Below the pieces are notes generated by a model, which saw only the letters and a program-made list of their open reading frames with translations, searched no databases and was not told the origin of the DNA. This document shows positions 9,874-34,149 of a stretch of DNA of 37,710 bases, in pieces. The DNA comes from a virus: IMG/VR virus record IMGVR_UViG_3300028392_000145, positions 1 through 37,710 of that record; one strand, given 5' to 3'. The translations under genes were made by a program, and so were the position numbers. Within the stretch, counting starts at the first letter, position 1. Each line of letters opens with the position of its first letter.

Positions 9874-9878
9874 TATAA

Positions 9879-9886: not shown

Positions 9887-9930
9887 TACTATAAAAATAA
9901 TATTTTTTTGGATAGTAATACATTTTAATT

Positions 9931-11008: not shown

Positions 11009-11014
11009 TTTCAA

Positions 11015-11022
11015 TAATTTTG
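11015..11022 (+). promoter_or_regulatory. Possible -7 element for the glycosyltransferase operon
   Basis: TAATTTTG is a perfect TAnnTTTG match. It lies in the divergent gap between the DUF6165 gene and the GT9-like gene, about 57 bases before the ATG at 11080. No clear TTG sits at -33. The gap must hold promoters for both directions. Confidence 0.4.
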
Positions 11023-11079
11023 AATGTAAATATAATCGTTTTACTTTATTTCATTAATTTTATCGAAATAAAAAAAACC

Positions 11080-18204: not shown

Positions 18205-21200
18205 TTATGGTGAAGTTGAAGATAAGTTAATATAATAATCTGTTCCGTCAATATTTACTGTCCAATATCCTGCTGCTCCTACTGCTAAACCTGTTTGTAC
18301 TGCTCCAAATTTCATTGTTCCTGCTGATGCGGTTATTGGTGCTTCTGTTTTTAATGTAAGTGTTTGGAATTTACCATCTTTTACCATTCTGAATTTCTCT
18401 ACATCATTTGATGGAAGTGTTCCAAAGGAGTAAATTATATCTCCATTATTTTGGTTACTAACAATCATTTTATTGGCTGTGTAACCTGCTGTTTGTTGAA
18501 CACTTACTATTAAATCTCCTGCTGCTGATAGATTTGAATAATCTGTTGATGCTCCTGCTGCTGCAAACCATCCTATTCCGTATGTTGCATTTTTTACGTT
18601 TAATCCATTAGAAGTACCATTTATAACTACGTTACCACCTGTTGTTACACTACTAGAGAATGTAGCTGCTCCTGTGGATGCTATGCGTAACGCTTCAGTT
18701 AAAACATTTGAACTGTTAGTTACATACAATCTAAATTCAGTTTCTGCACTTGCTGCATAATTACTATATGCTCTTAAATCAACTCCTGCTCCATTAAGAT
18801 TATCAAGAGGTGCGCCAATTTTAAATCCTGTATAAATTTGTGTGCCACTTGCCCAATTAGTAGCAACTGAAGTAAAAGCATAACCGCTTGATGCAACATT
18901 AGTAACTAAAACATTACCACCACTAAACCTTCCTGTACCATTAACATCTAGTAAATATCCTGCATCAGTTCCACCTGTATTTATACCAACATTGCCACTA
19001 GCATTTATATATAATTGTGAGCCAATTCTAAAATCAACCCTTGCACTTAAAGCATCATTAACACAATCAAATTGAGCACCACTATTATCTAATAATCTCC
19101 AATTTTGATTTGTAGCAGTTTTAACTCCTAATGGTGTACTTGTTGCAGCTCCATTTACTTGAACACTACTAGAGAATGTAGCTGCTCCTGTTACTAATAA
19201 TCCGCTACCATTTGCAACTAATTGTAATCTATCTCCTGTTCTATCATATCTAAATGCTGCTCTTTCAGTTCCTGCATCGGTTTGCAAACTCATTATATTA
19301 TTTACTCCTGTCGTAGCACTATTTAATGCTACCAAAGGAATATTAGCAGCTGAACCTGTTGATTGTATAATAGCGCCATATCCACTACCTGTAATATTTA
19401 AAGAATACCCTAAATCACTACCTACTATTAATTTTGTTGCCGTTACACTACTAGAGAATGTAGCTGCTCCTGACGAGTTTAAAACAAAATTTGATGCTCC
19501 ATTTTTACCAATAATAAATGTATCATTAGGGTTATCATTTATTATTCTCCAATAATTACCTGTATTAACACCTATGTCTATATAAGTATAACCTGCACTA
19601 AACAATCTAAATTTACCATATACATCTAACTTTTCAGCAGGACTTGTTGTTCCTATACCTACATTACCGCCATTGGGAACTAAAGCAAGATTGTTGTAGC
19701 CAGTTAAAGCAGTATAAGGTTGAATAAAACCATAGTTGCTTGTAGTGTTAAAACCTATTGATAATCTTTTTAAACTACTTGTTGCGCCTGAAATTACAAA
19801 CTGTCCTGAGTTAGCATCGTTGTTATCTGCTTGTACGTTAAGTAAAGCTAAAGGCGATGTAGTACCTATACCTACATTACCACCTCCACTTTGAAAAACT
19901 AAACTACCATACCCCCCCCCACTTCCTATTAAAGCATCTAATTCAGTATATGTATTTCCTGTAGTTGCACCATGTGTAATATATAACATAGATACACCAT
20001 CACTATTGGTTATTCTTGATGTACCACTAACAACCAATTTATTTGATACATCAGTAGTTGTTCCTATTAATACATTTCCCCCACTTGTTATGCGCATACG
20101 TTCGGAAGAACTTGTAAAAAATTGTAATTGGCTACCATCCATAAAGTTTGGTATATAACCTGTACCTCTTGCAAAAGCTAAAGTTCCTGCACCTGTTCCA
20201 TCATAAAATAATTCTAAACCTGTTCCTGTTGTCGGTGCTGTATTACCTGTTACTTGTATTCTTTGTGAGAATGTAGCTGCTCCTGTGGAGGCTATTGTAA
20301 GTCTTTTTGTATATGAAGCACCCGTGTAAACTTCAAAATCGTTGTTAGTTTGAACTACCCCATTATTACCAACTAATCCTATATAAGTATTATTACTTGC
20401 ATTTGAATATGTAGTAAAAATATTATTTGTTGAAGTATTTACTAAATTAATTGCTGAAGCAGCGGTTGTTAAATTAACTGTTATTGCTCCACTAAACCTT
20501 CCTGTACCATTAACATCTAGTTTGTAGCCTGCATCGGTAGAATTTCCACCTATGCTTACATTCTTGGTAGAACCAAAAACACGCATTGCCTCTACCCCAT
20601 TAATACCAAATAAGATATTACTTGTTCCTTGTGAAGAAATAGCAAAATCACCTGCAACTGAATTGGTTACAAAATTATTTGCTGAGGTAGCTAATCCAAA
20701 CTTTGCTTGGTAAGTAGCACCTGTTAATGCATCAGCCAAAGAAACCGAAGGAGCAGGACCAGCTATTAATAATTGGTTATCAGCAGTGGCAGAATAAATA
20801 TTAAATGCCCTAACCACTGTTGCACTTCCAACTGTTACACCACTACCATTATCAAATAATAAACTATTACCTATTGTTGTTCCACTACCTGTAAACTTAG
20901 CTACATAATTAAGTGTGCCACTAATTGTACCTTCACCACTAGAACCGCTAGAACCACTACTTCCGCTTGTTCCGCTAGAACCGCTTGAACCACTACTTGC
21001 ACTCGTTCCGCTACTTCCACTCGAACCACTTGAACCACTACTTGCAGATGTGCCACTTGAACCACTACTACCACTCGTTGCACTTGTTCCACTAGAACCA
21101 CTACTTGCCGATGTGCCACTTGAACCATTTGTTCCACTAGAACCCGAACTTCCACTTGTTGCACTTGTTCCGCTAGAACCCGAACTACCACTAGAACCAC

Positions 21201-24200
21201 TACTGCCACTCGTTCCACTAGTTCCATTAGCCCCACTTGTTCCACTACTTCCGCTAGAGCCGCTTGAGCCACTACTTCCACTTGTTGCACTTGTTCCGCT
21301 TGAACCCGAACTACCACTAGAACCACTACTTCCGCTTGTGCCACTTGTTCCATTAACCCCACTTGTTGCACTTGAGCCACTAGAGCCACTTGTAGCAGAT
21401 GTACCACTACTTGCAGAAGTTCCGCTAGAACCCGAACTACCACTAGAACCACTAGAGCCACTACTACCACTTGACGCACTTGTGCCACTAGAACCCGAAC
21501 TTGCGGATGTTCCACTAGAACCCGAACTACCACTAGAACCGCTCGAACCGCTTGTTGCACTTGTTCCAGAGCTTCCATTAGTTCCACTAGTTCCACTAGT
21601 TCCACTAGAACCCGAACTTGCCGATGTACCACTTGAACCGCTAGAGCCACTTGAACCCGAACTACCACTTGAACCCGAACTTGCACTTGTTCCACTCGAA
21701 CCACTTGAACCGCTTGAACCGCTCGAACCCGAAGTTGCGGATGTACCACTAGAACCAGAAGTTCCATTTGTTCCCGAAGTTCCACTTGTACCTGAAGTTC
21801 CGCTACTTCCATTAGTTCCACTCGTACCGCTTGTGCCACTAGTTCCACTTGTTCCGCTAGGAGCATTGAAAGTAGTTTGTGCGTAAGAATAGTAACTACT
21901 TCCTTCTGTATAAAAGTTTAAAGTTTGGCTTTGATTGTCGTTATTAGTAACATTTATAACTGCATATAATCTATCACTTGCATTAAGGCTTTGTGATGGA
22001 ATAAAAACATCGCAATATATTTGTTGTATAATTGTTGAATCAATTGTTACTAATACATTATTTGTAGCACCTAATAATGTACTTACCGCACCCGTTGTAT
22101 ATTTATACAATTGAACGTACACGTTCCATATAGAACGTGTACTTCCTAAAAAGTGCATGGTAAATGACCAGTTACCAGAAGGTATTGAAGTAGCATTAGG
22201 TACACCCGTATCGGTAGCAAAAGTTGCTATAATTCCACTTGCACCACTTCCTAAAGTTATATTTGTTGTCGTTTGAGCCGAACCACTAGGGATAGGACTT
22301 AATTGTTTATATGTTGGACTACCAAAAGCACTACTTGTATTGGTAGAATAGTTCATGTAATAAATCTGACCACCACTTACCCCACTTATCCCACTTGTGC
22401 CTGTTAATCCACTTGTGCCACTACTTCCACTACTTGCCGAAGTTCCACTACTTGCACTCGTACCACTCGTTCCCGAACTTGCACTTGTGCCACTAGAACC
22501 GCTTGTTCCACTAGAACCCGAACTTGCACTCGTACCGCTAGAACCACTTGAACCACTTGTTGCACTCGTTCCACTAGAACCCGAACTAGCACTTGTTCCA
22601 CTAGAGCCACTAGAGCCACTTGATGCACTCGTACCACTAGAACCATTAGTTCCACTCGTGCCATTAGTTCCACTTGTGCCATTAGTTCCACTCGTGCCAT
22701 TAGTTCCACTTGTACCATTTATTCCGCTTGTGCCACTAGAACCAGATGTTCCGCTAGAACCCGATGTTCCACTAGAGCCACTTGAAGCACTTGTTCCACT
22801 CGAACCATCAGTTCCCGTTGTGCCACTAGAACCCGAAGTTGCACTTGTTCCACTAGAGCCACTAGAGCCACTTGTTCCACTCGTTCCCGTAGTTCCACTA
22901 GAGCCACTAGATGCACTCGTACCGCTAGAACCATTAGTTCCCGTTGTGCCACTAGAACCCGAACTTGCACTCGTTCCACTACTTCCACTTGTTGCAGATG
23001 TACCACTAGAAGCACTAGAACCACTACTTCCACTTGTGCCACTTGAAGCACTAGTTCCGCTAGAACCATCAGTACCACTAGAACCCGAACTGCCACTTGT
23101 CGCACTCGTACCACTTGAACCACTCGTTGCACTACTACCACTTGTGCCACTTGAACCACTACTTGCCGAAGTTCCGCTAGAACCATTAGTTCCACTAGAA
23201 CCACTACTTGCCGATGTGCCACTTGAACCGCTAGAGCCACTAGATGCACTAGAACCACTCGAACCCGAACTACCGCTTGTTCCACTAGAGCCATTAGTTC
23301 CACTTGACCCAGAACTAGCCGATGTTCCACTTGACCCCGAAGTTCCACTACTACCAGCCGTTCCACTTGAACCTGCCGCTGAAGTCTTTTGAACTAATAT
23401 AGCCGTAGTAGTATTAATCTTTATATAAACGGGAAAACTACCACTTGTATAAGTAGTAGATAAATTTCCTACAACATTTGGGTTAAAATATAAGACATCC
23501 CCAACATTACCTACCAATGGTGGTAAATTGGAAACAATACGACCTAATGGTCGCACATTCATATTCCCCGTTTCGGGTGTAGACACGGCACTTACTATAC
23601 CAGCAATGCTATTTACTTCATTGATTGTTAAACTTGTAACTTTTACAAATTGCCCCGAACTATTTATTTTAACGAAATCACCTTCGACAAAACTAGCATA
23701 GATACTAGCACTAGGGTTTATCTGAAAGAAATCGGTTAAATAATTTCTAAAACGAAATCTATCGTGTAAATCATTCAACCAAAATGTTAAATCACCTAAT
23801 TGACTTCTTATTTGTTCGGTGGGAGTAATACTAGGAAGACCATCATTAGTTAAAGAAAAAACAACTCCTACAAATCCTTCGGGTGGAAAATTATTTCCTT
23901 GACCAGTATTATCTACAACTAAATTATATAAATCTACGTCTTCAAGAATAACATCACATGAAGTTCCATTGTAGTTAATGTTAGATATAGCATTAATGCG
24001 GTAGCAATTACCATTAGGCAATCCCAACCACATACCCACCATAAAATTAGTTGCATTATATTGCAATGGTGGTGTCGTATCGTAAGAACTAGTTTCTTGA
24101 ATTAAAACGGATAATGTACTAGAAAACGTATAACCAGAACCATTCCAATTGCTTAAAGGATTAACATAAGTAGAAGCTATCGTTGTACTCCCAAAGTTTA

Positions 24201-24243
24201 TACTTGCAGGTACACAAATTGGTGGTGTTATAATTTTTGCCAT
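18205..24243 (-). CDS. Giant fibre protein with two Gly-Ser/Thr-Ser tripeptide tracts
   Basis: The 2012-residue protein has five parts. Residues 1-290 form a beta-rich N-terminal domain (MAKIITPPICVPAS...). Residues 291-625 and 796-1103 are tripeptide tracts built of G-T-S, G-S-S and A-S-S units with rare G-T-N and G-T-D. Residues 626-795 form a globular beta domain. Residues 1104-2012 hold repeated phage-fibre modules of the NVGIGTTSP and GAATFSSSV types, ending in a small beta domain. I see no S74 chaperone. The Gly-x-y spacing suggests an extended or collagen-like shaft; the roughly 640 tract residues are mostly Ser and Thr and are plausible glycan sites. Likely a receptor-binding fibre. 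A run of nine G (minus strand) lies in codons 1442-1444. Confidence 0.85.
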   Translation of the reverse strand: MAKIITPPICVPASINFGSTTIASTYVNPLSNWNGSGYTFSSTLSVLIQETSSYDTTPPLQYNATNFMVGMWLGLPNGNCYRINAISNINYNGTSCDVILEDVDLYNLVVDNTGQGNNFPPEGFVGVVFSLTNDGLPSITPTEQIRSQLGDLTFWLNDLHDRFRFRNYLTDFFQINPSASIYASFVEGDFVKINSSGQFVKVTSLTINEVNSIAGIVSAVSTPETGNMNVRPLGRIVSNLPPLVGNVGDVLYFNPNVVGNLSTTYTSGSFPVYIKINTTTAILVQKTSAAGSSGTAGSSGTSGSSGTSASSGSSGTNGSSGTSGSSGSSGSSASSGSSGSSGTSASSGSSGTNGSSGTSASSGSSGTSGSSATSGSSGTSATSGSSGSSGTDGSSGTSASSGTSGSSGSSASSGTSATSGSSGTSASSGSSGTTGTNGSSGTSASSGSSGTTGTSGTSGSSGSSGTSATSGSSGTTGTDGSSGTSASSGSSGTSGSSGTSGSSGTSGINGTSGTNGTSGTNGTSGTNGTSGTNGSSGTSASSGSSGSSGTSASSGSSGTSATSGSSGSSGTSASSGSSGTSGSSGTSASSGTSGTSASSGTSASSGSSGTSGLTGTSGISGVSGGQIYYMNYSTNTSSAFGSPTYKQLSPIPSGSAQTTTNITLGSGASGIIATFATDTGVPNATSIPSGNWSFTMHFLGSTRSIWNVYVQLYKYTTGAVSTLLGATNNVLVTIDSTIIQQIYCDVFIPSQSLNASDRLYAVINVTNNDNQSQTLNFYTEGSSYYSYAQTTFNAPSGTSGTSGTSGTSGTNGSSGTSGTSGTSGTNGTSGSSGTSATSGSSGSSGSSGSSGTSASSGSSGSSGSSGSSGSSGTSASSGSSGTSGTSGTNGSSGTSATSGSSGSSGSSGSSGTSASSGSSGTSASSGSSGSSGSSGSSGSSGTSASSGTSATSGSSGSSATSGVNGTSGTSGSSGSSGSSGSSGTSATSGSSGSSGSSGSSGTSGANGTSGTSGSSGSSGSSGSSGTSATSGSSGSSGTNGSSGTSASSGSSGTSATSGSSGSSGTSASSGSSGSSGSSGTSASSGSSGSSGTSGSSGSSGSSGEGTISGTLNYVAKFTGSGTTIGNSLLFDNGSGVTVGSATVVRAFNIYSATADNQLLIAGPAPSVSLADALTGATYQAKFGLATSANNFVTNSVAGDFAISSQGTSNILFGINGVEAMRVFGSTKNVSIGGNSTDAGYKLDVNGTGRFSGAITVNLTTAASAINLVNTSTNNIFTTYSNASNNTYIGLVGNNGVVQTNNDFEVYTGASYTKRLTIASTGAATFSQRIQVTGNTAPTTGTGLELFYDGTGAGTLAFARGTGYIPNFMDGSQLQFFTSSSERMRITSGGNVLIGTTTDVSNKLVVSGTSRITNSDGVSMLYITHGATTGNTYTELDALIGSGGGYGSLVFQSGGGNVGIGTTSPLALLNVQADNNDANSGQFVISGATSSLKRLSIGFNTTSNYGFIQPYTALTGYNNLALVPNGGNVGIGTTSPAEKLDVYGKFRLFSAGYTYIDIGVNTGNYWRIINDNPNDTFIIGKNGASNFVLNSSGAATFSSSVTATKLIVGSDLGYSLNITGSGYGAIIQSTGSAANIPLVALNSATTGVNNIMSLQTDAGTERAAFRYDRTGDRLQLVANGSGLLVTGAATFSSSVQVNGAATSTPLGVKTATNQNWRLLDNSGAQFDCVNDALSARVDFRIGSQLYINASGNVGINTGGTDAGYLLDVNGTGRFSGGNVLVTNVASSGYAFTSVATNWASGTQIYTGFKIGAPLDNLNGAGVDLRAYSNYAASAETEFRLYVTNSSNVLTEALRIASTGAATFSSSVTTGGNVVINGTSNGLNVKNATYGIGWFAAAGASTDYSNLSAAGDLIVSVQQTAGYTANKMIVSNQNNGDIIYSFGTLPSNDVEKFRMVKDGKFQTLTLKTEAPITASAGTMKFGAVQTGLAVGAAGYWTVNIDGTDYYINLSSTSP
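19912..19920 (-). repeat. Homopolymer of nine G in the fibre gene
   Basis: Nine C on the plus strand (nine G in the coding strand) encode Gly1442-Gly1444 of the fibre. In an AT-rich genome this is a striking run. Gain or loss of one base would drop the last 568 residues. Confidence 0.9.
20935..21858 (-). repeat. Tripeptide-coding repeat tract 2 of the fibre
   Basis: About 920 bases encode residues 796-1103 in nine-base and longer modules (GSSGTS, ASSGSS and GTNGSS types). The three-base periodicity leaves two other frames open; these are not genes. Many modules are near-identical to tract 1. Confidence 0.9.
22369..23373 (-). repeat. Tripeptide-coding repeat tract 1 of the fibre
   Basis: About 1 kb encodes residues 291-625 in G-x-S units. 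A cluster of GTNGTS repeats at about 22630-22720 is almost perfectly tandem. It shares modules with tract 2 and with the smaller spike gene, giving substrates for recombination. Confidence 0.9.
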
Positions 24244-24249
24244 ACATAA

Positions 24250-24999
24250 TTAGACTTTTGCTTGAAAGTTAATTGTCAAAGTAGATACTCCAACAGTTGC
24301 ATATCCAGCCAAAGTTCCCGATAAACTATAATAAGTTATTGTAGTATAAGAAGAATTTTGAAACATAGAATAGTTACCCGTTGTGTTCCCTGTAAATGTT
24401 CTTGTAAGTACATTAGCACCATTAAGACCATTCGTAAATGAACCTATAACTACATTACCTAATGGATGACCTATTGTAAATTGTGAACCACTATCTACTG
24501 TGAATGTCCATCCTGCCGCACCAATTAAATTTGCCCCAACGGGGTCGGTAGCACTTGCAACACTATCTAAATTACCATTCATTGTATTTAATACAACTTG
24601 ATAGTTCTTTATAGTACCAGCCGCACTTACTCCACTAGTGCCAGTCAATCCACTTGTTCCACTTGAACCACTTGTTCCATTGCCACTTGAACCACTAGAG
24701 CCGCTTGTGCCACTAGTTCCCGAACTTGCACTAGTTCCACTTGTACCACTAGTTCCTTTTATCCCACTAGAACCACTTGTGCCACTTGTAGCGGTTAATC
24801 CACTCGTTCCTGCCGTACCCGTAAAACCACTAGTTCCACTTGTGCCATTTCCACTTGTTCCTGCCGTACCCGTAAAACCACTAGTACCGCTTGTGCCATA
24901 AGTTAAACCACTAGTTCCACTAGAACCAGCACCACTAGTACCCGAACCACCGCCACCTGCGATAAATCCAAATCCGTCAGCACCTAAAAATGAACTCAT
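24250..24999 (-). CDS. Small spike-like protein with capsid-type N-terminal motif and GTSG shaft
   Basis: The 249-residue protein begins SSFLGADGFGFIAGG; the FLGADGF part (residues 4-10) is nearly identical to FVGADGF in the capsid candidate. Residues 18-126 are a G-T-S-G shaft with two copies of a GFTGTAGTSG unit. Residues 129-249 form a beta-rich terminal domain (VVLNTMNGNLDSVASATDPV...). The layout suggests a spike with an N-terminal anchor, a shaft and a head domain. It is seven bases upstream of the giant fibre gene and probably works with it. Function inferred from architecture. Confidence 0.75.
   Translation of the reverse strand: MSSFLGADGFGFIAGGGGSGTSGAGSSGTSGLTYGTSGTSGFTGTAGTSGNGTSGTSGFTGTAGTSGLTATSGTSGSSGIKGTSGTSGTSASSGTSGTSGSSGSSGNGTSGSSGTSGLTGTSGVSAAGTIKNYQVVLNTMNGNLDSVASATDPVGANLIGAAGWTFTVDSGSQFTIGHPLGNVVIGSFTNGLNGANVLTRTFTGNTTGNYSMFQNSSYTTITYYSLSGTLAGYATVGVSTLTINFQAKV
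24622..24948 (-). repeat. GTSG-coding repeat tract
   Basis: The tract encodes residues 18-126 of the spike-like protein. A block coding GFTGTAGTSG occurs twice with the same bases, about 51 bases apart. It shares the module type of the giant fibre tracts. Confidence 0.85.
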
Positions 25000-25002
25000 G
25001 TC

Positions 25003-25413
25003 TTATGTTTTAATTAGTTCTTCTAAAAATATTTCCTTTATTACCTTCTCTTCTTTATATAGAAAAAAACGTATTTTATCTTCATCACCATTTATATCAA
25101 AATGTACACTTACATCAATTATATTAGACTTATGTTCATCTTCTAATTTCTTTAAAATATTAACGATTTGTGGTGGTAAAATAACTGAATATCCTTTCAT
25201 ATCCATAATCTTAACATTCAATATATCTTTAATAGTCACCTCTTTTATGGGATTGTTATCTATACAAAGTGTATAAGTATCATCCCCATTTATTAAGTAC
25301 AATAAGATAGATATTCTATCTTCCGTTACTTTATTTTCACTCGCAAACCTCTTAATAGCCTTTTCAAAAACATTCCTTGTTTCAGAAATAATTACGTCTT
25401 CTAATCCTTCCAT
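25003..25413 (-). CDS. Hypothetical soluble protein, 136 aa
   Basis: No family recognised. The protein is charged and soluble, with an alpha-helical start (EDVIISETRNVFEKAIKRFA) and alternating strands and helices (DDTYTLCIDNNPIKEVTIKD). It ends three bases before the spike gene and shares its direction. The leader has AAAAAAAACCATAAAAG before the ATG, the same element seen before other first genes. It may be a chaperone or accessory for the fibre genes, but that is inferred from position only. Confidence 0.65.
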   Translation of the reverse strand: MEGLEDVIISETRNVFEKAIKRFASENKVTEDRISILLYLINGDDTYTLCIDNNPIKEVTIKDILNVKIMDMKGYSVILPPQIVNILKKLEDEHKSNIIDVSVHFDINGDEDKIRFFLYKEEKVIKEIFLEELIKT

Positions 25414-25445
25414 CTTTTATGGTTTTTTTTATTTTAAAATCTATT

Positions 25446-25724
25446 CTATTGATAACTAATAATCACATCGACTATATCGCCACCCGTTGCCGCCGTAATG
25501 GTAATACCATCAAGACCTTGCCCCGTTCCTGCGTTAGTTAATGTAATTCCTTGACCAACGGCAAACGTCACCACCGAACTAGATAAGCCATTAAAGGTAG
25601 CACTACCTAAAAATGTAACAGTTCCTTGCCTTGTCAAAATAGATAACCTAGTGACATTTTGCGATGCACTAATTGTTAAACTACCAGCAGTTAATGTTTT
25701 CGAAAATACGTTTGTAGCTCCCAT
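25446..25724 (-). CDS. Small beta-rich virion protein, 92 aa
   Basis: The protein is short and composed mainly of Ser, Thr, Val, Gly and Ala in alternating strands (FSKTLTAGSLTISASQNVTRLSIL, VVTFAVGQGITLTN), with no membrane segment and no Cys. Proteins of this make-up are typical decoration or minor capsid proteins in phages. It is the last gene of the long membrane-protein operon. Function inferred from composition and place. Confidence 0.68.
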   Translation of the reverse strand: MGATNVFSKTLTAGSLTISASQNVTRLSILTRQGTVTFLGSATFNGLSSSVVTFAVGQGITLTNAGTGQGLDGITITAATGGDIVDVIISYQ

Positions 25725-25730
25725 TTTATA

Positions 25731-26219
25731 TTATTTTAATAAACTTTTTAAATTGTTGTGATATTCAAAAGGTATAGTTGTAGCTAAAAAACTACTCTTA
25801 ATCTTAACATATCCAACTGCATCAAAAGTTATATCCTTCGCCTTAACTGCTAGGGTAACCAAATTTACAATATTTCCCAATACTAGTTGTGGGTTAAAAT
25901 TAAATCTATACGTCAAATCTGAACTTTGTTGTGGTAAGATGGTATTTTCCTTTGAATCGGTAATATTTCCAATCAAAACACCATTCATTTTAAAGTCCAA
26001 ATACATTTCCGTAATTGTTGCTTCTACGTTGCTTGTATTGAATAGTCTATTAGTTATATCGACTGATATATTGGTTGAAGTAATTTGCACTATCTTGATT
26101 CCTACAACACTATATTGTATATTACTCAAATATTGTATTTGACTTTTATAGTAACGAACTAGTGCGTACCCAATAGCACCCAATCCACCTAAAAATAATA
26201 ATACTTTTAAATTTTTCAT
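25731..26219 (-). CDS. Membrane-anchored LEA2/WHy-like domain protein
   Basis: An N-terminal membrane segment (VLLFLGGLGAIGYALVRYY) is followed by a beta domain of about 125 residues. That domain matches the LEA type 2 (WHy) pattern: SVDITNRLFNTSNVEATITEMYLDF, then MNGVLIGNI and an ILPQQSSDL strand. WHy domains are small immunoglobulin-like folds, often at membranes. The start overlaps the upstream gene (ATGA). It probably lies on one face of the virion membrane. The fold call is moderate; the function is unknown. Confidence 0.68.
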   Translation of the reverse strand: MKNLKVLLFLGGLGAIGYALVRYYKSQIQYLSNIQYSVVGIKIVQITSTNISVDITNRLFNTSNVEATITEMYLDFKMNGVLIGNITDSKENTILPQQSSDLTYRFNFNPQLVLGNIVNLVTLAVKAKDITFDAVGYVKIKSSFLATTIPFEYHNNLKSLLK

Positions 26220-26830
26220 TTTCTAAATAATAAAGCTACTACAACTAAAACCCCAAGACCTATTCCACCATAAATAACAACATTTTTTGGCATACCTAAT
26301 ATGGTAGGTGCGGCGGTATCATCGCTACCAAGACCTAAAACATCTTTTTTGGCTTTATCCACACTAGCATCACTAATTTTAGTCAAAGTAGCCAAACTCT
26401 CTAATCTTGCCGCTTCTTTTTTTGCAGCGGCTTCTACCGCTACACAATCATATTGATTTTGAAGAGTCTTAGCCTTTGCTTGTGCATTTCTAGCTGCTTC
26501 TAATTGAAATGGCAATTCAAATCCTTTACTAGAAGCCATCAATTTTGTTACCCTTTCGATTTCTACTTGGGTATCGTCAATTAATGATGACACTCCTTTA
26601 CAATCGCTAGTATCGTATTTAGCCCATTTTGCCGTTTCGTCTTCTTTTACATTTTCTATTGAACTTTTACGTTTTTTGCTACCAAATAGATTATAAAATT
26701 CGTCATCGGCTACAAAGCCTACAAATTGTTTTGGTTGACTAGTAACAAAATCGTCAATGAATTGATTACTCCCTAATCTACTATGAGATAGAGCAGCTAA
26801 TTCGCTATTTTCCAACATATTTCTTGACAT
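26216..26830 (-). CDS. C-tail-anchored virion-type protein, 204 aa
   Basis: The protein has an N-terminal segment with QFVGFVADDEFYNLFG at residues 35-50, similar to the capsid candidate's motif. A long, charged helical middle (QLEAARNAQAKAKTLQ, KKEAARLESLA) and a C-terminal membrane segment (VVIYGGIGLGVLVVVALLF) ending in RK follow. There is one Cys pair (DCKG, YDCVAV). It could link the membrane to the capsid shell, with the N-terminal motif meeting the shell. This is inference. Confidence 0.7.
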   Translation of the reverse strand: MSRNMLENSELAALSHSRLGSNQFIDDFVTSQPKQFVGFVADDEFYNLFGSKKRKSSIENVKEDETAKWAKYDTSDCKGVSSLIDDTQVEIERVTKLMASSKGFELPFQLEAARNAQAKAKTLQNQYDCVAVEAAAKKEAARLESLATLTKISDASVDKAKKDVLGLGSDDTAAPTILGMPKNVVIYGGIGLGVLVVVALLFRK

Positions 26831-26845
26831 AATCTTATTTTTTAA

Positions 26846-27232
26846 TTAATTTTCTATTTGGTACTTTGAAGTTATTTCATTCATTTGGTTAATAACGTCT
26901 TGTCTTGGTTTTGTACCAACGTAGTTATTATTAGAAACATCTATACCATCTGCTATTTTTTGTAACTCTTCAATAGACAATAAATCTGCTTCTATTGTTT
27001 TTATCAACTTATCAGCCATATCTTGTTTATTGCTAATGGATGAAACACCACCATTAGTAGGCACTATTGGTTTTTTCTTTCTAGCTACAAGAAAAGGGAT
27101 AATTTTGTTTTTTAATGCAGTCTTTTGTTGTAGTTCTAAAGCACTAGATTTTTTCTTATTATTTAAGGTATATAAATAATACAACCCACCAGCAATTCCC
27201 AATCCAATCAATATTTGTGTATTCCTTTCCAT
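26846..27232 (-). CDS. N-anchored membrane protein, 128 aa
   Basis: The start is set at the ATG at 27232 (MERNTQILIG), five bases after the upstream gene; the longer frame overlaps it. A membrane segment (ILIGLGIAGGLYYLYTL) comes first, then a very basic stretch (NNKKKSS, ARKKKP). A helical acidic C-terminal region (MADKLIKTIEADLLSIEELQKIA) completes it. No family recognised. The basic patch next to the membrane puts the bulk on the cytoplasmic or interior side, where it might meet DNA. Confidence 0.7.
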   Translation of the reverse strand: MERNTQILIGLGIAGGLYYLYTLNNKKKSSALELQQKTALKNKIIPFLVARKKKPIVPTNGGVSSISNKQDMADKLIKTIEADLLSIEELQKIADGIDVSNNNYVGTKPRQDVINQMNEITSKYQIEN

Positions 27233-27236
27233 ACTA

Positions 27237-27773
27237 TTATAATTTATAAGTGATTCCTTTTTTAGCCCAATCACTATTTATTTCTTTTAATCTCCAATTA
27301 GAACCATGTGTAATAGCTGATGTGTTTAACATATCGTTACCTATTTTACTTTTAACCATAGAAAACAAATCTTGGTCTTCGCCAAAAGGGAATAAAGCAT
27401 CATGTGTTTTTCTTACACCATAAGCATTTATCAATAAGGCAACTTCTAAATCGTTTTTTAGATTTTTAAGTATTGTTTCTGCTTGACCATATTGGTTACC
27501 AATAATATTATACCCAGCTAAATTGTATAATTGATTTGCTAAAATAGAGTATTGAGTTTCTGGTATGGAAGAAACCATACCTTTACTTTTTAAATCCTTA
27601 ATAGATTTTGTAGAATCTTTTAAAACATTTGTATTAGCCTTTTCTTCGGGAGAAGGAAATAATTTTTTGTAAATAGGTCTACCTACAACAAAAACTAATC
27701 CCACACCACCAACAATGACAACCCCTTTAGCCCAAGCTGGTAATTCTTTATAATATTGATAGAAATTTGCCAT
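27237..27773 (-). CDS. N-anchored membrane protein, 178 aa
   Basis: One membrane segment (GVVIVGGVGLVFVVGRPIY) lies at about residues 17-35, followed by a helical domain of about 130 residues (YSILANQLYNLAGYNIIGNQY). It includes VALLINAYGVRKTHDALFPFGEDQDLFSMV, a pattern also found in other Bacteroidota phage proteins that I cannot name, and ends in NSDWAKKGITYKL. It begins 15 bases after the SH3-type gene. Probable virion membrane protein. Confidence 0.7.
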   Translation of the reverse strand: MANFYQYYKELPAWAKGVVIVGGVGLVFVVGRPIYKKLFPSPEEKANTNVLKDSTKSIKDLKSKGMVSSIPETQYSILANQLYNLAGYNIIGNQYGQAETILKNLKNDLEVALLINAYGVRKTHDALFPFGEDQDLFSMVKSKIGNDMLNTSAITHGSNWRLKEINSDWAKKGITYKL

Positions 27774-27788
27774 TTTTTTGTTTTAATC

Positions 27789-28229
27789 TTATTTAATATA
27801 TGCTACATCGGAACGAATCCATCCATTTTTATGTGGTAAAGTTGCTCCACAAGTGCCGAAACTACAATTATAATTAGAACTCCTTTCTACCTTGTACCAA
27901 TCAAAACCATCTTGACCAACTACCGAAGTAGTTATAACACCAGCTTCTTCGTCTTTTTGTAGTAACCCCCACAAATTATTAATAGCACCATTGTTTACTA
28001 CTGCACTAGCCCTAATTGCCGCATTTTCAAATTTAGCAAAAGCCTTTTTACCTATAACACTAATAGGTGCTACATTTTTAGTGCCACCACCTTGTCCACC
28101 ACCCGTTTGTGTATTAGACGTATCAATACTATCGGCTATTGGTGCTGATGGTTTCTTTAAAAATTTATAGGCTAAATAGCCAACCCCAACAAATCCTAAA
28201 ACCCAATATATAGTGCTAACCTTTTTCAT
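27789..28229 (-). CDS. Membrane-anchored SH3-like domain protein
   Basis: The N-terminal membrane segment (IYWVLGFVGVGYLAYKFL) is followed by a Gly/Ser/Thr-rich linker (SNTQTGGGQGGGTKN). A domain of about 80 residues has an SH3b-like end (FDWYKVERSSN, then GWIRSDVAYI) and a Cys pair (NCSFGTC). Bacterial SH3 domains often bind peptidoglycan or peptide stems. It may touch the cell wall during entry. A second SH3b membrane protein is encoded at 29706-30161. The fold call is moderate. Confidence 0.7.
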   Translation of the reverse strand: MKKVSTIYWVLGFVGVGYLAYKFLKKPSAPIADSIDTSNTQTGGGQGGGTKNVAPISVIGKKAFAKFENAAIRASAVVNNGAINNLWGLLQKDEEAGVITTSVVGQDGFDWYKVERSSNYNCSFGTCGATLPHKNGWIRSDVAYIK

Positions 28230-28237
28230 AGTATTTT

Positions 28238-29047
28238 TTATTTAACACTGCCAGTTGCGTAAACGTCTTTAATGTTATACTCGGCTATGTAATCTTTTAT
28301 AAATTTATTTAAAATATCGTATCGTTCTTTGTTTTGTTGAGATGGGTAGCCAATAAATGTTTCCACAAAGGCAGCATAAGCTTCTCTTACGGGATAACCT
28401 AATCCCAAATATATTGTCAAGCCATTCAAATCGGCTTCCGTTTCATTGCTTATATCCGTATTAATGTAGAAATGACTAAACTCATGTAAGAGAATAGCCA
28501 TACGCATCGGTATAGTAAATGGAATAAAAGATTCTTGACTTACTTGTATTCTACCATTTTTGGTGCTTATACGAGCTGGTGTTGCCATTCTTTCACCTTT
28601 ATTACTTCTAATAAAAGGTAGATATTCAATCTTGAAATTACCAACAGTGCTTGTATAATCCCTATCTGCTGGCATATAACCACACTTATAACAAAACTTT
28701 TGAGCAAATGAAACAAAGTTTCTAACCATCAAAGTATCCATTTTGGTCTTTGGCAATGTTATATCTAACTCTAATTTCTTTACTTCTAATACTTCAAAGC
28801 TATCATCTTCACCTTTCTTTCTATTACCATTAGCTTTATTGTAGATAGAAACAGTTACCATATTGGGTGCTAAAGGCATCCGAATATATAACTCTTCCTT
28901 TCCATTAACTTCCTTTGTTCTATTAGTAAAAAAAGTATTTGCTTGTGTGGCATCAAAGGCTTTTAATACAATAGTTTCTAGCTTTTTAGTGCGTACTACT
29001 ATTTTTAACATACAAGGGTCGTAACGAAGCCAGCACCTATAATCCAT
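28238..29047 (-). CDS. HExxH zinc metallopeptidase in a virion operon
   Basis: The 269-residue protein has HEFSHFYINTDISNETEADLNG near residues 190-211. HExxH binds zinc, and the downstream Glu and Asp of NETEAD could complete the site as in gluzincin-type peptidases. The N-terminal part (KIVVRTKKLETIVLKAF...) is beta-rich, and a C-x2-C (KFCYKCGY) sits near residue 118. No membrane segment or signal is seen, unlike its neighbours. It could process capsid or spike proteins during assembly, or act on peptidoglycan cross-links. Start is the ATG at 29047. Confidence 0.75.
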   Translation of the reverse strand: MDYRCWLRYDPCMLKIVVRTKKLETIVLKAFDATQANTFFTNRTKEVNGKEELYIRMPLAPNMVTVSIYNKANGNRKKGEDDSFEVLEVKKLELDITLPKTKMDTLMVRNFVSFAQKFCYKCGYMPADRDYTSTVGNFKIEYLPFIRSNKGERMATPARISTKNGRIQVSQESFIPFTIPMRMAILLHEFSHFYINTDISNETEADLNGLTIYLGLGYPVREAYAAFVETFIGYPSQQNKERYDILNKFIKDYIAEYNIKDVYATGSVK

Positions 29048-29068
29048 TCAACTATTTTTACTTAATTA

Positions 29069-29389
29069 CTAAATATCTTCTAATTTCAAAGGTTTCACTA
29101 TATTATCTGGCATCAAAGCATATCTACCTTTGGTAAGTTGTTTTCCTTTTTGCCTTACTGCTTTACTAACTTGTGCCGTTGATAAGACAATTTCATAATC
29201 TCTTAACAAAGCATCAGTAAAAGGTGCAGTTGCTTTTTTAGTTTCTTCAACTACCACTTCTTTAAGTTGTGCATCGGTCAAAAGTTTGTCAGAAGCAATT
29301 TTATCCTTCTTCATTTTTTGCAAATGCAAATAAACTCCTAACGAAGCCGCACCTATTAAAGCACCAATTAATAATTTATTACTACTCAT
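29069..29389 (-). CDS. N-anchored membrane protein, 106 aa
   Basis: The start is the ATG at 29389 (MSSNKLLIG), two bases after the upstream gene; the longer frame overlaps it. A membrane segment (LLIGALIGAASLGVYLHL) is followed by a basic stretch (QKMKKDK). A helical region (DAQLKEVVVEETKKATAP) and a C-terminal GRYALMPDNIVKPLKL complete it. Function unknown; probable particle membrane protein. Confidence 0.7.
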   Translation of the reverse strand: MSSNKLLIGALIGAASLGVYLHLQKMKKDKIASDKLLTDAQLKEVVVEETKKATAPFTDALLRDYEIVLSTAQVSKAVRQKGKQLTKGRYALMPDNIVKPLKLEDI

Positions 29390-29390
29390 A

Positions 29391-29690
29391 CTATTTCTTT
29401 TTAACAATTTGACCAATAATGATAGCTAGAACTATTACTCCACCAGCTATGTAGATAGTTTTTAAAGGAAATCCTAATACTGTTGTGCCTTTCATAACTT
29501 TTTCTTTTTCAAGTTTACTTAAAGATATATTTATTTCTTCGTTCAAATTACTATTCAAAGGGAACACTCCCTTCGTTTTTTCTCTAGTGAGCCAATCACT
29601 AAAATTGAGAGTTCCACCATCATCTTTATAAATTTTAAAGAGTTGGTTAGCAGTCAATTTTTTGTTTACATCAAAAGAATCGCTAGACAT
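29391..29690 (-). CDS. C-tail-anchored membrane protein, 99 aa
   Basis: The soluble N-terminal part (LTANQLFKIYKDDGGTLNFSDW) is followed by a helical stretch, a membrane segment (TIYIAGGVIVLAIIIGQIV) and KKK. The N-terminal segment resembles a small helical domain found in many Flavobacteriaceae phage proteins. The leader contains AAAACCATAAAAT immediately before ATG. Function unknown. Confidence 0.7.
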   Translation of the reverse strand: MSSDSFDVNKKLTANQLFKIYKDDGGTLNFSDWLTREKTKGVFPLNSNLNEEINISLSKLEKEKVMKGTTVLGFPLKTIYIAGGVIVLAIIIGQIVKKK

Positions 29691-29705
29691 ATTTTATGGT
29701 TTTGT

Positions 29706-30161
29706 TTATAATTTTCTCAAATACTGTGTTGACACATATCCCAATATGCTATTCTTGTCATTTGACACTTCACTCCATCCTTTCACATTACTAGGTCTTG
29801 CAAAAATACTTACAAAACTTTCTAGTTGGGTTACAATTGCACCTTTTGAACTTGGTTTTGACCTTACATTAAGATTATCACCAGTTGTATTTATTGCATA
29901 CAATTCATATTGATTTGCACCCTTTTTTAAATCCCCAACATTTAAAACATTTGTGATAGTACCCGAAATAATATCACCAACCGATTTGCCAGCATTTATA
30001 ATTTTGTTTGAAACATCATTAGATGGTGGTGGTGGTGTAGTATCTTTTCCCGTTGGCGGAGCTACCATCGGTGGCTTCTTTAACAATAAAAACCCTAAAA
30101 CACCTATTACGGCTATTGTGCTAACAACTAGTATTATTGTTCCGCTACTTGCTTTTTTCAT
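29706..30161 (-). CDS. Membrane-anchored SH3b domain protein
   Basis: An N-terminal membrane segment (GTIILVVSTIAVIGVLGFLLL) is followed by a Pro-rich linker (PPTGKDTTPPPPSND). A C-terminal bacterial SH3 domain contains NLNVRSKPSSKGAIVTQL and GWSEV, and ends in GYVSTQYL; LNVRSxPS is the SH3b hallmark. SH3b domains commonly bind cell-wall peptides. The protein probably projects from the particle membrane or helps cell-wall contact. Start overlaps the next stop by ATGA. Confidence 0.8.
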   Translation of the reverse strand: MKKASSGTIILVVSTIAVIGVLGFLLLKKPPMVAPPTGKDTTPPPPSNDVSNKIINAGKSVGDIISGTITNVLNVGDLKKGANQYELYAINTTGDNLNVRSKPSSKGAIVTQLESFVSIFARPSNVKGWSEVSNDKNSILGYVSTQYLRKL

Positions 30162-30388
30162 TCTTCATCTATTTTAGGTAGTAAAATTTGTGAAACGATA
30201 CCACCTAGTAAAGCACCTAAAAAAGCAGAAGTAATTAAATTGTATTGCCTTGTATAGCCAATTAACAATCCACCACCCATGCCAATTAATGCACCACTAA
30301 TAGTACCTTTTGTTTTTTTCAAAGCCATGCTATCCGATTTGGATTTCAAGTCTTTTACTTTATCAAGAATTTCTTTTGCTTCTCCCAT
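30158..30388 (-). CDS. Two-pass membrane protein with glycine zipper, 76 aa
   Basis: A charged N-terminal helix (GEAKEILDKVKDLKSKSD) is followed by two membrane segments: GTISGALIGMGGGLLIGYT and SAFLGALLGGIVSQIL. Repeated Gly-x3-Gly spacing forms a glycine zipper, which favours membrane-helix packing or oligomers. The protein might shape the virion membrane or form a pore. Function unknown. Confidence 0.7.
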   Translation of the reverse strand: MGEAKEILDKVKDLKSKSDSMALKKTKGTISGALIGMGGGLLIGYTRQYNLITSAFLGALLGGIVSQILLPKIDEE

Positions 30389-30399
30389 CGTTATTAATA

Positions 30400-30540
30400 T
30401 TAAGCATGATTTTTATTCCAATCAGCTATCGCCTTATCATTTTTTAATTGCGTATCGCTTACTTTAAATTGCTTGTATAAAACAATACCAACACCAACTA
30501 TAAGACCATAAACTAAAATTGTCTTTAAATTAATTTTCAT
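30400..30540 (-). CDS. 46-residue single-pass membrane protein
   Basis: This short frame fills the gap between two operon genes. It starts at ATG 30540 and ends in TAA at 30400-30402. The peptide has MKINLKTILVYGLIVGVGIV as a start plus membrane segment, then a charged tail (YKQFKVSDTQLKNDK). Its N-terminal anchor and basic tail match the neighbouring membrane proteins. Without it the gap would be the only unexplained stretch inside the operon. Confidence 0.68.
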   Translation of the reverse strand: MKINLKTILVYGLIVGVGIVLYKQFKVSDTQLKNDKAIADWNKNHA

Positions 30541-30556
30541 TTTTTAAAATTTAATA

Positions 30557-30955
30557 TTATAAACTAGATTGAACTAAACCAGATTTTCCTTTCGGTCTTT
30601 TATCATTGCATTTGCAAGCCGCTTGAATACTAGTGGATGATTTGCCACCAAAAGTACCCGTTGCGTTCATACTTGTTGAAAGCTCTTGTATAGCAACACG
30701 ATTAGGATTAATAGGGGTTCTTGATTTAACAATAGGAGTTCCACCAACAACACCACCCGTATTCGTTATATCGTCAATAGTTAAAGGAGTTTTAGCATTA
30801 GTAGCACCATTACCTACTTGTGTTGTCATAGGTGTGGTAGATGCTGCTGGACTTTTTAAGTCTGCCGTCTTTAAGGCTTTCTTTTTACCATAATATCTTA
30901 ACAATAGAATAGTAGCCGCAACACCCCCAACAAACCAAAATATTTTCTTTTCCAT
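30557..30955 (-). CDS. N-anchored membrane protein, 132 aa
   Basis: The start is the ATG at 30955 (MEKKIFWFVGG), five bases after the upstream gene; the longer frame overlaps it. A membrane segment (IFWFVGGVAATILLLRYYG) comes first, then KKKAL and a Ser/Thr/Pro-rich, probably disordered middle (SPAASTTPMTTQ). A short Cys pair (AACKCNDKRPKGK) lies near the C-terminus. No family recognised. It is likely a virion membrane protein with an extended tail. Confidence 0.7.
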   Translation of the reverse strand: MEKKIFWFVGGVAATILLLRYYGKKKALKTADLKSPAASTTPMTTQVGNGATNAKTPLTIDDITNTGGVVGGTPIVKSRTPINPNRVAIQELSTSMNATGTFGGKSSTSIQAACKCNDKRPKGKSGLVQSSL

Positions 30956-30959
30956 ATAA

Positions 30960-31727
30960 TTATTTTTTTTTTGCAATTAAGTAAACAACACCAATAAGAG
31001 CCAAAGCACCTACACCGATTAAAACGTATGTAGTAGTATTACTCTTTTTAGGTGGTGGATTTAAAGCTAGTTGTTTTTGCATTTCTTGTTGTTGAACCGC
31101 TAATTGTTGAGCCGTTTGAGTAGTGCTATTAGCATCTTTTTGTTGCTTATTAGCCAATGATTGCAAACCAATACCAATACCAGCATTGATGTTTTCTTGT
31201 GTAAGTACATTTGTTTTTAAGAAATCCCAAACACTAGATAATGCTTTACCAGCACCCGTTTTTCCACTAGTTGCTTTTCCACTAGGAGCATTAGATACTA
31301 TATTACCCGATGCTTGACCTGCTGCAAATATTTTATCCGCTGTACTACCACCAGCATTGAAAAACCCATCACCACCCGTAAAGTTTTTGCTTTTTTTGTT
31401 TCTACCACCAGTAAACTCACCCCAATCTAAACCAGCGGTGGATTTAAAATCGTCAAGACCCGTAAAGCCCCAATCACGATTATCGGCTGCGAAGCTTGCA
31501 AAATGCTCACCAGCAACAGGCAATTTCTTACCTAGTAATTTAGTTAAGTCATCACGAAAGGTTACACTTTTACCATTAGCAATTAAAACTGCGTGTGTTA
31601 CTTCTTTATCGCTTGCATTGCTTGGTAGTACAATACCATTTCTTTTTAGTAGACTAACTAGTGAACTTTTATCGGTAACAATAGTATAAGATATTAGTTC
31701 TTGTACTGTCTGTGTTGCTGATGCCAT
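30960..31727 (-). CDS. C-tail-anchored protein with repeated FTGG motifs, 255 aa
   Basis: Residues 14-50 form a small helical domain (TIVTDKSSLVSLLKRNGIVL) that resembles the start of the next upstream protein. Residues 70-127 are aromatic and Gly/Asp-rich: HFASFAADNRDWGFTG, WGEFTGG, and FTGGDGFFNAGG at 116-127, like the capsid candidate's N-terminal arm. A Gln-rich helix follows (TTQTAQQLAVQQQEMQ), then a membrane segment (TYVLIGVGALALIGVVYLI) and AKKK. It may connect shell and membrane. No known family recognised. Confidence 0.72.
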   Translation of the reverse strand: MASATQTVQELISYTIVTDKSSLVSLLKRNGIVLPSNASDKEVTHAVLIANGKSVTFRDDLTKLLGKKLPVAGEHFASFAADNRDWGFTGLDDFKSTAGLDWGEFTGGRNKKSKNFTGGDGFFNAGGSTADKIFAAGQASGNIVSNAPSGKATSGKTGAGKALSSVWDFLKTNVLTQENINAGIGIGLQSLANKQQKDANSTTQTAQQLAVQQQEMQKQLALNPPPKKSNTTTYVLIGVGALALIGVVYLIAKKK

Positions 31728-31742
31728 GTTATAATTTTTTTA

Positions 31743-32144
31743 TTATTTTTTCAATATTATTGCAAAAGCAATCAATACCGCACTAGCAAGTACAATTAAA
31801 CTAGTTTCGGTAGTAATTTTCTTGTTATCGGCTACTTGTGCCGCTTGCATTTGACCCGAAAAATTCATGTAGTCTATTAGTTTTACACTCTCTTTTTCGC
31901 ATCCACAATCTTCTTTTTTTCTAGGGAATTTTTTATCGAAATATTCCATAAACAACTCTTTGTCGGGGTTGTTTTCTACAATTTCCATTAAGGCTGGCTC
32001 ACCTTCATAGGCTACCAATTGTTGCAAAGCCATACCTAGCGGTTGCTCTTTATCTACAACATAGCCGTATTTATGTAGCAATGATTTGGCAAAGTAAGGA
32101 TTACTTGCTGCTACATAACCATACATATTGACATTATTCGCCAT
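31743..32144 (-). CDS. C-tail-anchored virion-type protein, 133 aa
   Basis: Residues 10-60 form a helical domain (VAASNPYFAKSLLHKYGYVV...) similar in layout to the one in the 30960-31727 product. A Cys pair (EDCGCEKES) and a C-terminal membrane segment (SLIVLASAVLIAFAIIL) ending in KK follow. It is the first gene of the long membrane-protein operon, right after the capsid terminator. A perfect -7 element is only five bases before the ATG. It is probably abundant in the virion. Confidence 0.72.
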   Translation of the reverse strand: MANNVNMYGYVAASNPYFAKSLLHKYGYVVDKEQPLGMALQQLVAYEGEPALMEIVENNPDKELFMEYFDKKFPRKKEDCGCEKESVKLIDYMNFSGQMQAAQVADNKKITTETSLIVLASAVLIAFAIILKK

Positions 32145-32149
32145 AATAA

Positions 32150-32157
32150 CAAATTTA
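32150..32157 (-). promoter_or_regulatory. -7 element TAAATTTG just before an ATG
   Basis: The minus strand reads TAAATTTG, a perfect TAnnTTTG, then TTATT and the ATG of the gene at 31743-32144. Transcription would start at or near the start codon. No TTG is seen upstream at -33. It follows the capsid terminator, so a new promoter is expected here. Confidence 0.5.
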
Positions 32158-32169
32158 ATACTTTTTAAT

Positions 32170-32212
32170 GAAAAAAGGGTGAAGAAGATATACTATCCGC
32201 TTCACCCCTTTC
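32170..32212 (-). terminator. Rho-independent terminator after the capsid candidate
   Basis: On the minus strand GGGTGAAG pairs with CTTCACCC, closing a loop of about 15 bases, and a run of T follows. It lies 27 bases after the stop of the 32239-32949 gene and isolates its transcript. Confidence 0.85.
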
Positions 32213-32238
32213 CTTTATATTAAACCTTCAGTTTTGTA

Positions 32239-32949
32239 TTAACGAGCTGCTGGTCTGATGATTCTTGGAGAACCATATTGTTTAGATACTGGGTTTCCAC
32301 CTAATCCACGAGCGATATTGATAGTATCAGAAGGATAGAATTGGAATTGTACACTTGAAGCTGCAAATACTTGCAAAGTCAATCTAGTAAAACCATCAAT
32401 TCTAAACGGCTGCTTTAATTCAATAACACCAGATTGTTGTTGGTATGGGTCGATAACTGGAGTTAAGATTTTTACTGCACTATTACCATTCGCATCTTGT
32501 GTGCTTAAAGTAATTGATTGTAAAACTTGACTAACTACACCATTTATAGACGAAATCAAAGTAGAACCGATTGAGAAAGGGCTTACACTTGATTGGTTAA
32601 GTAAGTTGTAATAAGTTGTGTTAGACAATCCACTAGTGATAGTAACATTATTAACTGTTAATGAACCATTACTGAAACCAGCATTGTTCAAATAGATATA
32701 TGCACCAAAAATGTCAACCGATACGGCTGCATTTGAAGCATTAGATACAGTGATGATGTAAGGTTGAGAACGCATACTTGCGGCAGGAGCAGCGGCAGCG
32801 GCAGCAGGAGCTGGAGTACCATCAGCATAAGTGAAGAAATCTTCTCCACCAGCAAAATACATATCGTCATCCAAGAAACCATCTGCACCAACGAACTGCT
32901 CATTAAGAGAGCGGTTTGCGTTTTGTAGGTAACGTGAGATATTACTCAT
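32239..32949 (-). CDS. Candidate major capsid protein, 236 aa
   Basis: The first 58 residues form a flexible acidic arm: FVGADGF at 19-25, MYFAGGEDFF at 30-39, then a Pro/Ala linker. Residues 60-215 are beta-rich without membrane segments, with alternating strands (PYIITVSNASNAAVSVDIFGAY; GVIELKQPFRIDGFTRLTLQVF). The C-terminus is basic (PRIIRPAAR). The folded part, about 160-175 residues, fits a single jelly roll rather than the double barrel of PRD1-type capsids. The gene has a strong consensus promoter, its own terminator and only a 34-residue companion, which fits a highly expressed shell protein next to the packaging operon. No direct homologue recognised. Confidence 0.66.
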   Translation of the reverse strand: MSNISRYLQNANRSLNEQFVGADGFLDDDMYFAGGEDFFTYADGTPAPAAAAAAPAASMRSQPYIITVSNASNAAVSVDIFGAYIYLNNAGFSNGSLTVNNVTITSGLSNTTYYNLLNQSSVSPFSIGSTLISSINGVVSQVLQSITLSTQDANGNSAVKILTPVIDPYQQQSGVIELKQPFRIDGFTRLTLQVFAASSVQFQFYPSDTINIARGLGGNPVSKQYGSPRIIRPAAR

Positions 32950-33327: not shown

Positions 33328-34149
33328 TTATTGGAAGTACACTTTTTGCATCCTTGCCTTTACATCGGCTATGGCAGTTTGGTCAGTCCATTTCTTCTTA
33401 CTATCGGCATCCTTTTGTACTAAATAAGGTTTAATTAAAGAATTGTAGTTTTCGTTTATGAATTGGTCAATACTATTTTCAATCATTTCTTGGCTAAAAC
33501 CACCACGAACTTTCTCTTCATCCATATCTACATAAACAAAGAATCTTTTATTGCCAGCATTGTATTCATTATTGACCATTATTTCGGCAATACGCATAAA
33601 TTCAAATTTGTCTGGGAACTTCTTTATGTGTCTTTGTACACTCTCTGTATTCTTATGGAAACGCAACACATTTAGATTACCCCATACTTTTGTATTGATA
33701 CGACCTAGTGATTGATAAGATAGTATAATATCCAAACCAACGTGTCTATTGGTACAAATAGCACCAATCAAGTCATCGGGCAAATGGTCACCAATAAACT
33801 TATTAATATCTTCAATAAGCAATAACCCATTTTGAAAACGATTTAAAACAAAGAATAAAGCCTGAGCCCATTCGTCTAGTGTCATCCTTCTACCATCGGG
33901 GTGGAAAGGTCTAACCCTTCTAATTTCAATGCTTGGGTGTACACTAAATAAAGCAACGTGCTCCAACGATATTGCTGGCACATTAAATACACCATATTCA
34001 TCATTAACATCCATTATCAAGCACCTTCTACCCTTAATACCCCTATATACATCGCCCGTTACGATGGAGTTCATCATAATTAAGTGCTGGTAACTTTTAC
34101 CAACACCCTTCTTACCGCAAGCCGCCATTAAACAAACTTCACGAGCCAT
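33328..34149 (-). CDS. HerA/FtsK-type genome packaging ATPase
   Basis: The 273-residue protein has Walker A GKKGVGKS (residues 12-19), a short strand LIMDVNDEYGVF, and Walker B GLLLIEDINKF near residue 108. A TNRHVGLDIILSYQSLGRI segment carries the Arg-finger-like and Gln-sensor positions of HerA/FtsK motors. No membrane segment is present, unlike FtsK itself or the Zot proteins of filamentous phages. Size and layout match the A32/P9-type packaging ATPases of tailless viruses with internal membranes. It would pump DNA into a preformed capsid. It is the last gene of its operon and ends at a strong terminator. Confidence 0.86.
   Translation of the reverse strand: MAREVCLMAACGKKGVGKSYQHLIMMNSIVTGDVYRGIKGRRCLIMDVNDEYGVFNVPAISLEHVALFSVHPSIEIRRVRPFHPDGRRMTLDEWAQALFFVLNRFQNGLLLIEDINKFIGDHLPDDLIGAICTNRHVGLDIILSYQSLGRINTKVWGNLNVLRFHKNTESVQRHIKKFPDKFEFMRIAEIMVNNEYNAGNKRFFVYVDMDEEKVRGGFSQEMIENSIDQFINENYNSLIKPYLVQKDADSKKKWTDQTAIADVKARMQKVYFQ

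Follow-up and report, generated by a model that had tools for sequence, protein, structure and literature searches.

A short aromatic-led motif common to the putative coat protein and many membrane proteins of an uncultured, apparently tailless group of bacterial viruses

In tailless, probably membrane-containing viruses, the choice of a dozen or more minor proteins and their tethering to the shell are known case by case only. The locus described here lies in a 37.7-kb virus record, analysed as a single stretch of 37,710 nucleotides (referred to as the window in the rest of the paper), and raises the question of why a putative coat protein, a spike-like protein and several membrane proteins carry one and the same short peptide of six to seven residues. 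A preliminary description of this DNA had written the peptide as F-x-G-A/G-D-G-F and proposed that it could be either a docking tag to the shell or a processing site. The genes on which the question turns are the following:

33328..34149, minus strand, P-loop ATPase, candidate packaging ATPase (Walker A and B kept across clades)
32239..32949, minus strand, putative major coat protein, 236 aa (relatives at 44-82% identity, structural model, weak jelly-roll matches)
32770..32904, minus strand, disordered coat tail, residues 16-60, holding both motif copies (pLDDT <50)
31743..32144, minus strand, C-terminally anchored membrane protein of family fam4 (motif in other clades)
30960..31727, minus strand, tail-anchored membrane protein of family fam0, 255 aa, C-terminal membrane segment (relatives in all clade A loci, alignment)
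29391..29690, minus strand, C-terminally anchored membrane protein of family fam8 (motif in other clades)
28238..29047, minus strand, HExxH...ExEAD metalloprotease-like protein, candidate processing enzyme (catalytic-type residues)
26216..26830, minus strand, tail-anchored coiled-coil-like protein of family fam22, 204 aa (alignment)
24250..24999, minus strand, collagen-like spike or fibre candidate, 249 aa (collagen-like repeats, relatives at ~80% over 120 aa)

The window belongs to a large, uncultured group of apparently tailless bacterial viruses whose records reach about 100 kb. No cultured or annotated relative was found in the collections searched, and the group is apparently undescribed. 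Searches for the terminase gave no phrog_2 match in 9 records, and searches for terminase and portal gave no PF03237 or PF04860 match in 15 records; controls were positive in both cases, and the records may be incomplete. The terminase large subunit and portal expected of Caudoviricetes were not found in the records tested. The candidate packaging ATPase had no relative in the phage collections, and its best family members were weak ones (Pfam DUF87 (HerA), 1.8×10−4; Zot, 1.6×10−3). PAP2 and the numerous membrane proteins point, short of proof, to a particle that contains a membrane, and from synteny and weak folds we infer a virion role for the genes that carry the motif.

Several observations concern the records themselves. 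The contigs behind L005, L012, L031 and L033 are four related records of 84.2-84.7 kb, nearly equal lengths that suggest near-complete genomes of ~84 kb, a very large size for a phage without a tail. In the L012 contig, a 114-bp inverted match links the start with a position ~0.8 kb short of the end. L051 and L052, from a Chlamydiales and a Bacteroidetes MAG, are the only two matches in cellular genome contigs; these contigs are short and the host assignment is uncertain. In the window, positions 5740-6795 (minus strand) code for a 351-aa protein with long STTTSTTT repeats, adjoining glycosyltransferase-like genes (2431-5670 and 11020-16864).

All five sites of the preliminary description translate as it claimed, and scanning of the window's proteins together with the family alignment added a copy in fam0 that it had overlooked:

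32875..32895, minus strand, coat protein, motif copy 1, FVGADGF (context NEQFVGADGF)
32833..32856, minus strand, coat protein, motif copy 2, FAGGEDFF, running into EDFFTYADG
31446..31466, minus strand, fam0 tail-anchored protein, FTGLDDF (the additional copy)
31359..31382, minus strand, fam0 tail-anchored protein, FTGGDGFF (translation)
26696..26725, minus strand, fam22 protein, FVGFVADDEF, with the loose motif FVADDEF(YNLFG) at 26696..26716
24970..24990, minus strand, residues 4-10 of the collagen-like spike-like protein, FLGADGF (translation, relatives' equivalents)

In the fam0 alignment, F, T, G, D and D of FTGLDDF are invariant. The fam22 site, which is the loosest of the five, is homologous to FTGEEDFYNLFG in relatives according to the family alignment. 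Across the window's 53 predicted proteins, the strict pattern F.G[AG]DGF, picked post hoc after inspecting the window, occurred 3 times against 0.001 expected from 2000 per-protein shuffles, and the looser F.G.[DE].F occurred 5 times against 0.16. The coat copy (TTC GTT GGT GCA GAT GGT TTC) and the spike copy (TTT TTA GGT GCT GAC GGA TTT) differ in codon at five of their six shared residues, which argues against a recent copy at the DNA level and for selection acting on the peptide. The resemblance is that of a shared short linear motif maintained by protein-level selection. Two look-alikes in the window were set aside: FGADGQFG in 9152-9601, which we take to be a peptidoglycan-binding-type repeat, and FNNMDG in the methyltransferase-like protein of 3921-4421, to which a comparable FPNMDG corresponds in two other genomes. 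We also rejected an EF-hand-like interpretation of NADGFID, since it lacks the first ligand and the other copies have no acidic run.

Relatives of the coat protein were collected from IMG/VR viral contigs and MAG loci in overlapping sets of 16, 34 and 66 viral loci, plus two genome contigs. The 34-locus set is biased, since one of the two patterns used for scanning overlapped the motif; the patterns behind the 66-locus set and the two genome contigs fall within the coat fold and do not share that bias. In these loci, every coat protein that is intact and full-length has a disordered N-terminal tail bearing the motif, either as such or in diverged form. Clades, named here from sequence pattern and not from a tree, have their own versions: FIGVDGF in clade A, that of the window; FLNADGF and FVNADGF in clade B; FSNADGF and FANADGF in clade D. 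Divergent forms include NMSGG, NAGG and, in L036, WSNAGG. Residues F19, G21, D23, G24, F25, F32 and F38 of the tail are invariant among clade A and L014/L015.

Assignment of the 32239-32949 product as a coat protein is itself putative. A model built on a 36-sequence alignment (one from 11 close sequences reached a pLDDT of 36 only) has a pLDDT of 69 overall, ~85 over the core and <50 at residues 16-60, and predicts a disordered N-terminal tail with the two motif copies followed by a beta-sandwich that resembles, weakly, a single jelly roll. The best Foldseek match, itself weak, is the grapevine fanleaf virus coat (2.5×10−4, TM 0.37/0.52), and the model gives VIA Z scores up to 5.7, a level shared with nucleoplasmin-type jelly rolls. 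The coat protein has no relative in the phage or plasmid collections, and PDB sequence searches returned generic P-loop matches or none.

Paralogues of the coat domain also occur. At 6768-7262 (minus strand) the window codes for a 164-aa protein that is ~30-34% identical over 67-80 aa to the folded domain of the coat protein; this paralogue has no motif tail and adjoins a second set of small membrane proteins (7265-9873). Others lie at 9824-11017 and 7247-7711 of L016 and at 6754-7407 of L054, two of them apparently membrane-anchored. In L016 a tandem duplication of the coat domain inside one 397-aa protein forms a natural fusion of two coat folds; the contig's ordinary coat gene is found in L112. 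L105 has two tandem full-length coat genes (9845-10546 and 10570-11271), both with the motif tail.

Across the related loci, the motif takes the general form E-x-[F/Y/W]-x-[N/G]-[A/V/M]-[D/S/N]-G. The F-x-G-A/G-D-G-F of the preliminary description is thus real in the window, yet it is merely a local dialect of the general E-x-aromatic-x-[N/G]-A-[D/S/N]-G. The core [FYW]x[NG][AVM][DSN]G occurs 115 times in the non-coat genes that lie downstream of the coat gene, compared to 5.7 in shuffles, 8 times upstream of the coat gene in a similar amount of sequence, and 3 times when the core is reversed. Replacing the aromatic residue by an aliphatic one gave 10 occurrences against 15.2 in shuffles. Since both controls fall at or below chance, residue order and the aromatic both matter. 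Glutamate is enriched at position −2 (P = 6×10−10), and conservation ends at the final G, beyond which residues are free. The core is found in about 17 blast families, with 70 distinct family/6-mer pairs; because the sequences are related, counts are not independent events and the family counts are the safer measure. The carriers fall into separate blast families.

A profile trained on coat-protein tails only, applied at a threshold of at least 11 bits, replicated the motif in non-coat ORFs: 74 matches, compared to 12.3 in shuffles and 7 in reversed proteins. The downstream side of the coat gene holds 71 of these matches and the upstream side 3, in 157k and 154k residues, respectively. A broader pattern, more prone to chance matches, was applied to 45 coat-distinct entries that have at least 8 kb of sequence downstream (one locus counted twice for its two coat genes): 44 contain one or more further carriers, and 37 at least two. 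In three genomes of 80-84 kb that were scanned, most occurrences fall in the genes for the coat, tail-anchored and spike proteins, and a few chance look-alikes lie elsewhere. In L036 and in L072/L100, the D of the core is changed to G or S in coat tail and membrane proteins alike; such concerted change is seen case by case, and G or N at position 3 does not strictly track clade. The finding is robust and has been replicated. The motif of the coat protein and many membrane proteins is general, specific in residue order and far wider than first seen; contrary to both conditions under which the preliminary description would have been refuted, it is present in orthologues and is concentrated in the inferred virion-gene region instead of occurring at chance frequency in other proteins.

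Most carriers cross the membrane once, 75 with a C-terminal anchor and 29 with an N-terminal one, and hydropathy places each of the 119 motif sites in them (119/119) on the soluble side of that membrane segment. Together with the low pLDDT of the coat tail, these soluble-side linkers bear out the proposal that the motif lies in flexible, non-membrane segments. Some families carry it outside the window's clade: fam4 has ESFLGADG and FLNASG and fam8 has EEFVNADGG in other clades, while the window's copies show no recognisable motif (fam4) or lack it (fam8). The motif occupies residues 4-10 of the spike in clade A and of fam62; relatives of the spike have FLGGDTF and FLGTDYF at the same N-terminal place. 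Small fam13 proteins of clade D keep the anchor, linker and motif and vary beyond them; among tandem paralogues, identity is 51-95% in the leader and 4-45% in the head, the conserved leader ending exactly at the motif.

Other repetitive proteins were noted. Directly downstream of the spike-like gene, positions 18205-24243 of the window (minus strand) code for a 2012-aa collagen-like (SGTSG) protein. Collagen-like proteins of clade B have different N-termini without the motif. A tail-anchored protein of L014 (11171-12154) repeats FDGSVGQDGAF in tandem about six times, and this repeat may be a related, sticky one.

We consider, with a probability of about one half, that the motif is a short linear tag for docking: membrane and spike proteins would copy the arm of the coat protein and attach to one shared site, either on the shell or underneath it. 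The coat protein would present the tag twice in its disordered N-terminal arm, and single-pass membrane proteins would have it in the linker that joins the soluble part to the membrane segment; the collagen-like spike of the window's clade would display it at its N-terminus. The receptor would most simply be a groove in adjacent coat subunits or a lattice protein lying below the shell, and the outcome would be tethering of membrane and spike to the shell and recruitment of minor proteins. Docking is preferred, moderately, because the extreme N-terminal sites of the spike and fam62 fit a terminal tag better than a cut site, because several copies in one arm (2 in the coat protein, 2-3 in fam100) suit avidity, and because the aromatic residue and strict order are required in a motif common to the coat's own conserved arm. 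The parallel change of the core D in coat tail and membrane proteins of L036 and L072/L100 speaks for docking as well. The evidence is also compatible with processing, the other half of the original proposal. The motif would then be the putative recognition site of a virus-encoded maturation protease, probably the HExxH metalloprotease (28238-29047), which would cut coat arms and membrane proteins during assembly by a logic comparable to that of poxvirus AG/A sites; vaccinia A12L, p4b and p25K, which share one cleavage motif, provide a precedent (PMC1947960). This explanation, the main rival, is credible if rather unlikely, and it owes its standing to a metalloprotease-like gene that sits in the same cluster and keeps its catalytic-type residues in every clade, L036 included, to conserved positions that all lie before or at the last G, and to the anchor-plus-motif leader of fam13 with its variable heads. 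However, cleavage of the spike and fam62 at residues 4-10 would take off just a few residues, cutting needs no multiple copies within 20-30 residues, the coat arm is conserved as a whole around the motifs, and many soluble domains would lose their membrane anchors.

The composition of the motif, F/Y, N/G, A, S/D/N and G in disordered segments with several copies per arm, could also be that of a self-adhesive aromatic/Gly/Asn/Ser segment pairing with its own copies without a separate receptor, much as low-complexity, aromatic-rich kinked segments do, so that coat arms and membrane-protein linkers would stick together. Such pairing would explain the presence of the motif in coat and membrane proteins alike, as every partner bears it, but we regard it as improbable, since the strict order (the reversed core being no commoner than chance) and the E at −2 are better explained by specific recognition than by composition. 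Chance or descent of a common domain might be invoked because the strict pattern was chosen after viewing the window and one scan pattern of the 34-locus set overlapped the motif. We give this almost no credence: counts far exceed shuffles and reversed controls, carriers belong to separate blast families and differ in codons, and loci found by motif-free patterns show the same signal.

A bolder reading can be tentatively proposed, that a coat-arm peptide plus a membrane anchor is one modular address code for the whole particle, able to load any head domain; the clade D paralogues would then constitute a cargo-loading cassette system in a tailless phage. Because one motif is common to the coat and many unrelated components, the rule can be read from sequence and new virion proteins can be predicted in uncultured genomes; as a small peptide, of which NEQFVGADGFLDDD is an example, the motif is directly testable for binding or cleavage.

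Encapsulin cargo-loading peptides are a known case in which one short terminal peptide directs unrelated proteins to a protein shell. The likeness lies in the single short peptide, the unrelated carriers and the protein shell; in contrast, there is no sequence relation, the present carriers are anchored in a membrane and the motif also occurs in the shell protein. Among tailless viruses, Sphaerolipoviridae/Helvetiavirae have an internal membrane and single-beta-barrel coat proteins (PMC5332951). The present group would resemble them in a predicted single beta-barrel coat (a weak fold match here), a candidate packaging ATPase of HerA/FtsK type (weak family matches here) and membrane proteins in the presumed virion cluster, but no sequence similarity was found, the records reach ~100 kb and a single main coat protein takes the place of two. 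Adenovirus fibre tails and poxvirus AG/A maturation sites would be the closest known counterparts of docking and processing, respectively. The poxvirus sites likewise place one short motif in several virion proteins, with a predicted metalloprotease gene in both systems, whereas the motif here is longer, aromatic-led, multi-copy and sometimes extreme N-terminal, and its cleavage is putative. The adenovirus fibre tail FNPVYPY docks into a cleft of the penton base (PMC8156859) and so attaches the fibre to the shell, as the motif of the window's spike candidate would; both are short conserved aromatic peptides at a spike N-terminus. Adenovirus uses one protein and one site, whereas here many unrelated proteins and the coat itself carry the peptide and would share a presumed binding site.
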